Position numbers and translations under genes: made by a program. Of a DNA stretch of 64,000 bases, positions 55,284 through 58,593 are shown one piece after another. Source of the DNA: Pseudomonadota bacterium (lineage in GTDB: Bacteria; Pseudomonadota; Alphaproteobacteria; Sphingomonadales; Sphingomonadaceae). Numbering within the stretch: the first letter of the stretch is position 1; each line of letters opens with the position of its first letter. The notes under the pieces were generated by a model. It was not told the DNA's origin and ran no database searches. It saw only the letters and a list, made by a program, of their open reading frames with translations. The stretch lies in contig JAIUPN010000001.1 of the NCBI GenBank assembly GCA_020160755.1, forward strand, positions 186,001 to 250,000, in the 5' to 3' direction.

Positions 55284-56132
55284 ATGACCGATTTTTCCTT
55301 GCCCGATTTCGACCTTGATGCCTTCGTTCGCGCCACTTTGGCCGAAGACCTGGGAGCGGGGGGCGATATCACCTCGATGGCGACGATTCCTGCCGACGCG
55401 CGCTTCGGCGGCGCAATGGATAGCCGCGATGCGATCACGGTCGCGGGCCTGCCAATCGCCGAGCGATTCTTTCGCGCGCTCGAACCCGCGATGGAGATAG
55501 AGATACTGGTCGAAGAAGGCGCGCAGGTCGCGCCGGGCAGCGACCTGATGCGGCTGTCGGGCAATGCCCGCGCGATGCTGACCGCCGAGCGATCGGCGCT
55601 CAATACGGTGCAGCATCTGTCGGGCATCGCAACGATGACGCGCCAATATGTCGATGCGCTCGCCGGAACCGGCGCGACCTTGCTCGATACGCGCAAGACG
55701 ATTCCGGGCCTTCGCGTGCTCGAAAAATATGCGACGCGGATGGGCGGCGCGACCAATCACCGTATGGGTCTGTGGGATGCGGCGATGATCAAGGATAATC
55801 ATGTCGCGGTCGCGGGATCGGTCGAGGAAGCCGTGCGGCGGGCAGTCGCGGCGGGGATCGCAAGCATCATCGTCGAGGTTGACCGCGTCGCGCAGGTCGA
55901 GCCCGCGCTGGCCGCCGGTGCGACGCACCTGCTGCTCGACAATATGGACCTCGCCGAATTGCGCGAATGCGTCGCATTGGTCGGCGGCAAGGTGCCGACC
56001 GAGGCGTCGGGTGGGGTCCGACTCGATACGATCCGCGATATCGGCGCGACCGGCGTGACCTATGTGTCGGTCGGGCGGCTGACGCAGTCGGCGCCTGCGG
56101 CGGACATCGGGCTCGATTTTGCGCTGGCTTAG
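55284..56132 (+). CDS. nadC: Nicotinate-nucleotide pyrophosphorylase (quinolinate phosphoribosyltransferase)
   Basis: A 282-residue enzyme for the third step of NAD synthesis from aspartate. It shows TAERSALNTVQHLSGIAT, DTRKTIPGLRVLEKYA, GGATNHRMGLWDAAMIKDNH and the barrel motifs IIVEVDRVAQVE and LLLDNMDLAEL. nadA and nadB are not adjacent. The ribosome site is weak. It overlaps the RNase T2 gene by 14 bases. Confidence 0.94.
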   Translation: MTDFSLPDFDLDAFVRATLAEDLGAGGDITSMATIPADARFGGAMDSRDAITVAGLPIAERFFRALEPAMEIEILVEEGAQVAPGSDLMRLSGNARAMLTAERSALNTVQHLSGIATMTRQYVDALAGTGATLLDTRKTIPGLRVLEKYATRMGGATNHRMGLWDAAMIKDNHVAVAGSVEEAVRRAVAAGIASIIVEVDRVAQVEPALAAGATHLLLDNMDLAELRECVALVGGKVPTEASGGVRLDTIRDIGATGVTYVSVGRLTQSAPAADIGLDFALA

Positions 56133-56835
56133 CGCGATCGCGCTGGCGCTGATCCCGGTCGCGGCGCAGGCGCAATCGCTGGCCTGCTCGGCGCCCGACC
56201 GTATACAGGTGCCGCGGCTCGAACAGCCGAAGCGCGGCGAACCCGTACGCAATCCACGGACGACGGGTTATCTGCTGAGTATGAGCTGGTCGCCCCAGCA
56301 TTGCGCCAATTCCCGCAATCCGAAGGACGCGCGCGACCGCTTCCAATGCTCGGGCGAAGGCGGGCGTTTCGGGTGGGTGCTCCACGGGCTGTGGCCCGAA
56401 ACTGACTCCCCCGGTTATCCGCAATGGTGCCGTCCGGCAAAGATCGTGCCGCAACCGGTGCTGAAGAAGCACATGTGCATGACGCCATCGGCGCAGCTCC
56501 TCCAGCATGAATGGGCGAAGCACGGGACGTGCATGAGCCCGAATCCCGCCGCCTATTTCCGGTCGGCGGAGATATTGTTCCGCGCGGTGCGCTTTCCCGA
56601 CATGAAGAAACTTGCGGCTGAACCCCAGACGGCGGGCAACATCCGGAGGGCCTTTGCAGCGGTCAATCGCGGCGTCACGCCGCCGATGATCGCCGTCTCG
56701 CTCGACCGGAAGGGGTGGCTCAGCGAGGTGCGCCTGTGTCTTGGCGCGCGGATGAAACCGGCGCGTTGCAAGCCGTTCCAGTCGGGCGTCGGCGACAGCC
56801 GCCAAGTCCGCATCAAACCGATGCCCGGAGCTTAA
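56119..56835 (+). CDS. Secreted ribonuclease T2 family protein
   Basis: The 238-residue enzyme starts at a TTG inside the nadC end; no ATG or GTG fits. The signal peptide is MRWLSAIALALIPVAAQAQS. Both active-site blocks are present: WVLHGLWPE (H89) and LLQHEWAKHGTCM (H130, E131, K134, H135). Conserved cysteines flank them (C62/C77, C104/C120/C138). It should cut RNA in the periplasm or outside the cell, probably for phosphate or nucleotide scavenging. Confidence 0.9.
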   Translation: MRWLSAIALALIPVAAQAQSLACSAPDRIQVPRLEQPKRGEPVRNPRTTGYLLSMSWSPQHCANSRNPKDARDRFQCSGEGGRFGWVLHGLWPETDSPGYPQWCRPAKIVPQPVLKKHMCMTPSAQLLQHEWAKHGTCMSPNPAAYFRSAEILFRAVRFPDMKKLAAEPQTAGNIRRAFAAVNRGVTPPMIAVSLDRKGWLSEVRLCLGARMKPARCKPFQSGVGDSRQVRIKPMPGA

Positions 56836-56876
56836 GGAGCGTGTGGCCATGCGTCCCACAGCGGGACGGCGCGGCG

Positions 56877-56909
56877 TTAACACTCTTTTAACCTTATCGA
56901 CTCGTTAAC
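56877..56909 (+). promoter_or_regulatory. CtrA-type binding site (TTAAC-N6-TTAAC) with extra half-site
   Basis: TTAAC, 6 bases, TTAAC is an exact full CtrA site (TTAA-N7-TTAA). A third TTAAC lies 12 bases further on. It stands 37-53 bases before the 74-residue membrane protein gene, a normal position for a CtrA-activated promoter. Confidence 0.62.
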
Positions 56910-56929
56910 ATCGTCCTAGCCTCGGCTGC

Positions 56930-57154
56930 ATGGACTCGGACGATCATATCGATATTCGCACCCTGGTTCGCGAACATGGGGCACGGCAGCTGACGATCGC
57001 GCGGCTGAGTGCACCGGCGGACTGGCAGGGTGAATTGCGAGCGGCACTTGCCGCGCATCGCGAGCCGGTCACGATCTTTTCCGGCAACGACTTCCGGCTG
57101 TTTCTTCAGAGCTTCGCGATCTTCTTCACTGCGACGATGATGTTCCTGATCTAG
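56930..57154 (+). CDS. Small protein with C-terminal membrane helix, unknown function (74 residues)
   Basis: It reads MDSDDHIDIRTLVREHGARQ, then an amphipathic middle (LRAALAAHREPVTIF) and a hydrophobic C-terminal helix (FLQSFAIFFTATMMFLI). It is a tail-anchored-like microprotein. I do not recognise the family. No clear ribosome site precedes the ATG (CGGCTGCATG). A full CtrA-type site upstream suggests cell-cycle or motility control. Its stop codon is shared with the convergent transporter gene through a CTAG. Confidence 0.75.
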   Translation: MDSDDHIDIRTLVREHGARQLTIARLSAPADWQGELRAALAAHREPVTIFSGNDFRLFLQSFAIFFTATMMFLI

Positions 57155-58446
57155 TCAGGCCGCAGTCGCGGACCTTCATCGCAGGCCTTGTGGAGGCGCC
57201 AGGCGAGCATCGCCGACACGAGACACATCACCGCGACCATCAGCAGCGTGTCGTCGATCGTCAAGCCGATGCCGATCAGCACGCTGAGCAGCAGCGTCGC
57301 GGCAACCATGAAGCCAGAATTTACGATATTGTTCGCGGCGACAGTACGCGCGGTCTGCGATTTGGCGACTGTGGTCGTCAGAAAGGCATAGAGCGGCACC
57401 ACGAACATCCCGCCGGCGATCGCGATGCCGAGCAGGTCGAGGATGATGCGATCGCCCGCGGTGAGCGCGAGGAAATCGCGCCAGTTCATCAGCGTCGCAC
57501 CATGGTGGTTCCACCCCTTCACATTCCACCACAGGTCGAGCACGAACAGACCCATGACGATCACCGATCCCGGCGAATAGCGCGCCGAGACATGACCCTT
57601 GAGAAGACGGTTCACGACGATCGAACCGATTGCGACGCCGACCGAGAAAATTGCGGTGAACAGGGTCGCGACGGTGTTGTCGGCCCCCAGCGCATTTTTC
57701 ACCAGCGGCGGGAATTGCGCTGCGAGAATCGCGCCGATCGCCCAGAAAAAGCTGATCGAGAGGATCGCCAGAAACAGGCGCGGGATATGCATCGTCGAAT
57801 TGACGATCTGCCACGATGAGCGAAGGACGTTGCGATCGATGACCATCCCCGCAGCCTCCTTTTCGGGCGGCGCTGAAGGCACATAAGTCGCGGTCAGGCG
57901 CCCGATGATCGCGACGAGAATGATGCCGGGGATAGCGATATGCGGCGGAGTGAGGCCCCCGACGATCGTCCCGCCGAGGATCGCGATATAGGTGCCCGCC
58001 TCGACCCAGCCCGTTCCCGCAAGCACTTCGTCTTCATGCAGATGCTGCGGCAGGATCGCATATTTGATCGGGCCGAAGAAGGTCGAGTGCATGCCCATCG
58101 CGAACAGCGCGAGCAGCATCACGGGCACGAGGTGGAACCAGATGCCGATCGCGCCGACGATCATGATGAAGATTTCCGCCGTCTTGATCACGCGGATCAT
58201 CCGCGTCTTGTCAGTGCTGTCGGCGAGTTGCCCGGCGAGCGCGGAAAAAAGGAAGAAGGGCAGGATGAAGAGGCCGCCCGCGAGCGCATTGAACCACGCC
58301 TCGGTCTCGGGATCCTTATAGATAGTGAAGGTGACGAGGATCACCATCGCCATCTTGTAGAAATTGTCATTGAAGGCGTTGAGGAACTGTGTCGCGAACA
58401 GTGGCAGGAACCGGCGTTGCTTCATCAGCGCAAAGGAACCGGTCAT
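57151..58446 (-). CDS. MFS transporter, LplT-like (lysophospholipid transporter family)
   Basis: A 431-residue 12-helix transporter beginning MTGSFALMKQRRFLPLFATQFLNAFNDNF. That opening, with QFLNAFNDNFYKMA, is characteristic of LplT and its relatives, which flip lysophospholipids across the inner membrane. SALAGQLADSTDKTRMIRVIK is the conserved loop between helices 2 and 3. An in-frame ATG 27 bases upstream is a weaker start. The acyltransferase Aas often fused or adjacent to LplT is not here. Confidence 0.82.
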   Translation of the reverse strand: MTGSFALMKQRRFLPLFATQFLNAFNDNFYKMAMVILVTFTIYKDPETEAWFNALAGGLFILPFFLFSALAGQLADSTDKTRMIRVIKTAEIFIMIVGAIGIWFHLVPVMLLALFAMGMHSTFFGPIKYAILPQHLHEDEVLAGTGWVEAGTYIAILGGTIVGGLTPPHIAIPGIILVAIIGRLTATYVPSAPPEKEAAGMVIDRNVLRSSWQIVNSTMHIPRLFLAILSISFFWAIGAILAAQFPPLVKNALGADNTVATLFTAIFSVGVAIGSIVVNRLLKGHVSARYSPGSVIVMGLFVLDLWWNVKGWNHHGATLMNWRDFLALTAGDRIILDLLGIAIAGGMFVVPLYAFLTTTVAKSQTARTVAANNIVNSGFMVAATLLLSVLIGIGLTIDDTLLMVAVMCLVSAMLAWRLHKACDEGPRLRPD

Positions 58447-58593
58447 TGAAAATCCACTTTTGTACCCCGACATCCGGACAACGCCCGCCCCGGGAGGCAA
58501 TATGGTTGTCGCCCGGCGGGCTTATCGGTTAGGGGAAGCGGGGTCAAAGCCCATTTTGGGCGGAACGTAACGCGCGCGCTGGAATCAGGGACC

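Follow-up and report, generated by a model that had tools for sequence, protein, structure and literature searches.

A putative CtrA-controlled, tail-anchored microprotein family of the Sphingomonadaceae

Overview

A 74-codon open reading frame (ORF) preceded by two CtrA-type boxes lies in the window analysed here, a stretch of 64,000 nucleotides from a genome whose closest relatives belong to Sphingopyxis. Judged from comparative sequence analysis, the best reading of this locus is that it represents an undescribed family of CtrA-controlled, tail-anchored microproteins of the Sphingomonadaceae. We consider it probable that the locus is a CtrA-regulon gene encoding a microprotein anchored by its tail in the cytoplasmic membrane, with the composite-promoter mechanism set out below included in that judgement. 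The initial annotation of this DNA had proposed an exact TTAAC-N6-TTAAC site in front of the ORF, and such a site is indeed present at 56877-56892. The finding is real, and it is broader and better supported than could be known from that first reading. The features of the locus are as follows.

56853..56867, no strand assigned: palindrome GTCCC-N5-GGGAC, a further cis-element conserved in the promoter, recognised by conservation and phased spacing to the proximal box
56877..56892, plus strand: distal CtrA-type box TTAAC-N6-TTAAC, -53 to -38 from the ATG; exact TTAA-N7-TTAAC in 55/58 Sphingopyxis orthologues
56894..56909, plus strand: proximal CtrA-type box TTAT-N7-TTAAC, -36 to -21 from the ATG; TTA[TC]-N7-TTAA in 55/58 Sphingopyxis orthologues
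56899..56903, no strand assigned: GACTC, a GANTC (CcrM-type) methylation site within the proximal box; GANTC here in 36/58 orthologues
56917..56922, plus strand: -10-like element TAGCCT (consensus TAGCNT), 7 nt before the ATG; TAGCNT in 54/58 orthologues
56930..57154, plus strand: 74-residue microprotein gene with no known domain, supported by orthologues, coding constraint and profile searches
57083..57151, plus strand: predicted C-terminal membrane anchor, residues 52-74, from the predicted helix 52-73 and a tail profile match to the family in other genera
57151..58500, minus strand: convergent MFS (LplT-like) gene, PF07690

The microprotein and its gene

The ORF begins at the ATG at 56930 and ends in a stop codon that overlaps that of the convergent MFS gene (CTAG, 57151-57154). 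Upstream lies a gene of the RNase T2 family (56119-56835), a position occupied by different genes in other genera. Orthologues of the microprotein were found at 58 distinct Sphingopyxis loci. Among these, the differences at the three codon positions amount to 0.16/0.11/0.38, single-base codon differences are synonymous in 7603 cases and non-synonymous in 2518, and insertions and deletions comprise whole codons. Given the synonymous bias and the distribution of differences over codon positions in the 58 loci, the ORF is, on this comparison, under protein-coding constraint. Profile searches against Pfam, NCBIfam and PHROG returned no significant family above cut-off, in line with the earlier statement that the protein lacks a known domain, and a search of PDB structures gave no match.

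With regard to its architecture, the predicted model has three helices, at residues 10-26, 32-43 and 52-73, the last of which agrees with the C-terminal hydrophobic helix proposed at the outset and is followed by a single residue. The Kyte-Doolittle maximum over 17 residues is 1.9, at residue 58, and the anchor follows the pattern D-x-R-L-F-x-x-S-F-x-x-F-F-T-A-x-x-x-F-L-I, which reaches the last residue. Since the C-terminal hydrophobic helix, confined to about the last 30 residues, is the only membrane segment, the prediction is of a tail-anchored microprotein whose N terminus faces the cytoplasm. The microprotein resembles bacterial tail-anchored membrane proteins in its single C-terminal hydrophobic helix, soluble N-terminal part and lack of a signal peptide, but it is not related in sequence to any named family, and its helix ends at the C terminus.

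Promoter conservation within Sphingopyxis

The 58 distinct orthologous Sphingopyxis promoters align without gaps, and their mean pairwise identity is 81% over the 47-bp promoter compared with 34% in the 45 bases that precede it. The segment TTTTAACCTTAYC is nearly invariant among them. Lack of conservation of the site in orthologous promoters had been named at the outset as one result that would refute the proposal; within the genus, few bases of the locus are as well conserved as the boxes, and the distal box is exact in 55 of the 58 promoters. The distal box reads TTAACACTCTTTTAAC, its position being counted from the A of the ATG; the exact TTAAC-N6-TTAAC arrangement occurs once in the window and in none of 100 dinucleotide shuffles. 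When described as the TTAA-N7-TTAA type, the match is exact at 56877-56891 and carries one mismatch at 56894-56908. A third TTAAC had also been reported, 37-53 nt before the start; it exists (56905-56909), but it lies outside that range, 20 nt before the ATG, and belongs to the proximal box. Because the promoter is conserved in 58 orthologues, a chance origin of the boxes is excluded on comparative grounds, whereas raw motif counts prove nothing.

Downstream of the boxes, the distance from the -10-like element to the ATG is 6-7 nt in 57 of the 58 orthologues and 5 nt in the remaining one, and the region upstream of the ATG contains no Shine-Dalgarno-like sequence. Considering this constant distance and the missing Shine-Dalgarno-like sequence, the mRNA is probably leaderless or near-leaderless, with transcription starting at or beside the ATG. 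A second GANTC (CcrM-type) site is found at 56933-56937, across codons 2-3 (ATG GAC TCG).

A diverged family beyond the genus

By sequence search alone, the microprotein looked specific to Sphingopyxis. Such a restriction was ruled out by a synteny search beside the LplT-like transporter, orthologues of which were found in 141 of 150 genomes of the Sphingomonadaceae. A diverged short ORF with the same kind of hydrophobic tail lies next to the transporter in 60 of 87 examined loci of the family, while about a third of the examined transporter loci yielded no microprotein with the filter used. The epithet 'undescribed' thus holds in that no Pfam or NCBIfam family covers the protein, but the gene is not local and occurs across the family. 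Many other genera have in common an N-terminal motif, M[RK]RxLVLTxExARHPFRxSLPPHV, which is missing in Sphingopyxis, and only 25 columns of the tail align between the profiles of Sphingopyxis and of the other genera (hhalign probability 94.5, E 8e-8). As only the anchor can be aligned and the N-terminal parts cannot, it is synteny and the promoter that argue for a common function. Outside the Sphingomonadaceae, the other matches (E 0.004-0.007) were short and partial and were judged to be due to chance.

The promoters of these diverged homologues were analysed as a set of 59, from which Sphingopyxis was excluded. A CtrA-type box, defined by at least 8 of 10 matches no more than 75 nt from the ATG, recurs in 43 of the 59, compared with a mean of 1.9 and a maximum of 6 in 200 shuffles, so that conservation of the site extends beyond the genus; the 59 promoters, coming from related genomes, are not independent events, though most other positions vary between the genera. 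In 47 of the 59, the best match to the box begins 24-26 nt upstream of the ATG, which places its 3' half-site 8 nt before the ATG. Since its spacing to the palindrome matches, the proximal box is, by this alignment of elements, the Sphingopyxis counterpart of the box conserved in the other genera, and the exact distal box seems to have been gained within Sphingopyxis. A further TTAAC upstream is also carried by 18 of the 59 promoters of other genera.

Within Sphingopyxis, the gene appeared to be absent from the small genomes G015, G017 and G356, an absence that was dismissed when diverged ORFs with TTAAC promoters were found at the same place. In G046 the microprotein gene has been lost and the RNase T2 gene directly adjoins the transporter, from which it follows that the microprotein is not indispensable in the genus. 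The incomplete genomes G009 and G042 gave no match to the transporter.

A phased palindrome as a second cis-element

The dyad YGTCCC-N5-GSGACR spans 17 bp, with its core between 63 and 77 nt upstream of the ATG. The genome has four copies of the palindrome, that of the locus being the sole non-coding one. At a threshold of at least 10 of 12 matches, the dyad is found in 42 of the 59 promoters of other genera, where about 2.2 would be expected; as the upstream gene differs between the genera compared, it belongs to the microprotein promoter. Counted to the proximal box, the spacing in other genera falls into groups at 43, 54 and 65 bp. The Sphingopyxis value is 42-43 and in rare cases 53 bp, obtained by adding 17 to the 25-26 or 36 bp between the dyad and the distal box; related genomes weaken the statistics of this spacing. 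With steps of 11 bp, dyad and CtrA box would always face the same way on the double helix, a geometry suggestive of contact between two bound proteins.

Promoters co-regulated by CtrA and SciP in Caulobacter (PMC4287350) offer a parallel, in that both have an N5 dyad next to the CtrA boxes, some 70-80 bp ahead of the start. The right arm of the dyad is GCGAC in several genera, reminiscent of SciP half-sites; the full SciP motif is GCGNC-N5-GNCGC (PMC4287350), compared with the arms YGTCCC and GSGACR in the microprotein promoter.

CtrA in the host genome and the limits of motif counting

The host genome encodes CtrA as a 234-residue protein (contig C12), the receiver half of which matches the CtrA domain 4qpj_C at 4e-54. 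The motif TTAA-N7-TTAA occurs only 4 times in the 4.3 Mb genome, and one of the four sites is TTAAATCAAAATTAACC, upstream of the ctrA gene. By our own estimate, base composition alone gives about 3 such sites, and with the count so close to that expectation, rarity alone is no proof of function. The genome-wide count that the initial annotation had advised as a check therefore showed no enrichment. Sites with one mismatch to TTAAC-N6-TTAAC are rarer than a reversed control (42 versus 65, both strands of the genome), and genome-wide counting was abandoned as proof of CtrA sites. The one-mismatch sites are intergenic in 29 of 29 cases compared with 12 of 30 for the control, a difference that was discounted as evidence since most copies of TTAAC by itself are intergenic; this bias is in large part accounted for by TAA stops and by the rarity of TTA codons. 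A spacing test in the window was likewise set aside: N6 leads with 13 matches, but 5 of these come from the microprotein locus.

Behind the one-mismatch sites stand 20 annotated genes, including 3 MCP, 3 PilZ, 1 GGDEF-EAL and 1 CHASE2 gene as well as 1 M23 peptidase, 1 sugar-transferase and 1 Wzy_C (O-antigen ligase-like) gene; none of these classes is represented among the 10 genes behind the control pattern, the classes having been chosen post hoc, after the list was inspected. They fit the published sphingomonad CtrA programme, which in Sphingomonas melonis covers motility, exopolysaccharide (EPS) and c-di-GMP (PMC8921679 citing Francez-Charlot 2015).

Proposed regulation and alternative explanations

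In the proposed mechanism, phosphorylated CtrA would bind the two upstream TTAA-N7-TTAA-type direct repeats (distal, -53; proximal, -36), which adjoin a weak promoter with TAGCNT as its -10 element, and the geometry in Sphingopyxis would lead to activation by CtrA and to a leaderless mRNA. A second factor, bound to YGTCCC-N5-GSGACR so as to share a face of the helix with CtrA, would modulate or cooperate with the latter. The C-terminal helix would then insert post-translationally, leaving the N terminus in the cytoplasm, and the short cytoplasmic part might dock on a membrane-bound partner of the motile or pre-divisional programme; this docking step is conjecture, suggested by the regulon. The motif TTAA-N7-TTAA is that published for CtrA (PMC4287350). 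In activated Caulobacter promoters, full CtrA motifs start near -35 (-39 in ctrA P2, -49 in podJ P1) (PMC4287350). If transcription starts at the ATG, the 5' ends of the boxes lie at -36 and -53, compatible with the positions near -35 to -50 expected of the activated class. Full-site CtrA promoters of Caulobacter crescentus are further alike in their direct repeats, in a 5' end near -35/-49, in a nearby GANTC and in the motility and c-di-GMP genes found downstream of sites in the same genome (PMC4287350); the microprotein locus, known from sequence, differs from them in its two tandem boxes with a phased palindrome, its microprotein target and its predicted leaderless start. The CckA-ChpT-CtrA programme of S. 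melonis (PMC6472365, PMC8921679) is that of a member of the same family, with CtrA present and a motility, EPS and c-di-GMP regulon, and the microprotein gene is not named in the accounts of it given by these citing papers.

The sign of the control is where an alternative deserves most thought. CtrA might repress the gene, the proximal box masking the -10 element, so that the microprotein would be made once CtrA has been cleared (G1-S), possibly with activation through GANTC methylation and GcrA. In Caulobacter, CtrA half-sites over the -10 element repress, and ctrA P1 has TTAA at -14 and GANTC at -28/-29 (PMC4287350); the GANTC kept in 36 of the 58 Sphingopyxis promoters agrees with this, and in other genera the 3' half-site 8 nt before the ATG is at least as compatible with repression over the -10 element as with activation, if not more so. 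The Sphingopyxis boxes, however, start at -53 and -36, ahead of the conserved TAGCNT, which is activator geometry, and activation by CtrA appears the more likely sign there. Repression as the explanation seems to us rather unlikely, and the regulatory sign may differ between genera, since the box of the other genera lies closer to the ATG. It is improbable that another response regulator of the OmpR/PhoB family, for example an envelope regulator, owns the gene. Direct repeats of 11 bp are general for that family and the genome has 13 Trans_reg_C proteins, but the motif is the published one for CtrA and recurs before ctrA and before chemotaxis, PilZ and c-di-GMP genes, that is, the known CtrA programme. 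CenR was rejected as the binder, its motif TGA-N8-TGA (PMC9275681) differing from the conserved boxes of the promoter.

The remaining alternatives concern the product. The pairing with the LplT-like transporter might be conserved because the microprotein serves it as an accessory subunit or regulator, as the adjacency in 60 of 87 loci from many genera with a variable other flank could indicate. The two genes are convergent and form no operon, G046 keeps the transporter without the microprotein, and the filter used picked up no microprotein in about a third of the loci; we regard this role as quite improbable, and as a partner the transporter is a weaker candidate than a membrane protein of motility or division. 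That the ORF is spurious or incidental and the conserved entity a regulatory or RNA element deserves almost no credence: strong conservation of non-coding bases would agree with it, but it is already contradicted by the sequence comparisons, namely the synonymous bias, third-position divergence, whole-codon indels and an anchor kept across genera while the DNA diverges.

Wider implications and further observations

The proposed regulation is of a known kind and the protein is unnamed. In a broader interpretation, on which we are evenly divided, the locus would stand for an unnamed family found throughout the Sphingomonadaceae, made up of tail-anchored microproteins that are under cell-cycle control and have rapidly evolving cytoplasmic peptides; the promoter would join CtrA to a second regulator, possibly a SciP-like CtrA partner, through a palindrome at whole helical turns (43, 54 and 65 bp). 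Sphingomonads keep CckA-ChpT-CtrA, while the DivJ-PleC-DivK layer is lost or degenerate (PMC2877005), which draws attention to the way CtrA output is read at the membrane in these bacteria. The microprotein, with a promoter better conserved than its N-terminal sequence, gives a handle on this read-out, since it could be deleted, tagged or employed as a CtrA reporter. From the phased palindrome a second regulator may be expected, for which the DNA could serve as bait. Moreover, synteny combined with promoter conservation can uncover microprotein families that profile libraries miss.

Two further observations were made. Two proteins combining PilZ with HTH_3/HTH_31, each behind a CtrA-type site, are possible c-di-GMP-linked transcription regulators. 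Additionally, in genome G361, at about 1500-1620 of the locus, the sequence TTAACCCTCTTTTGACCTTA precedes an ORF that may resemble the RcdA/DUF1465 family, a regulator of CtrA degradation.
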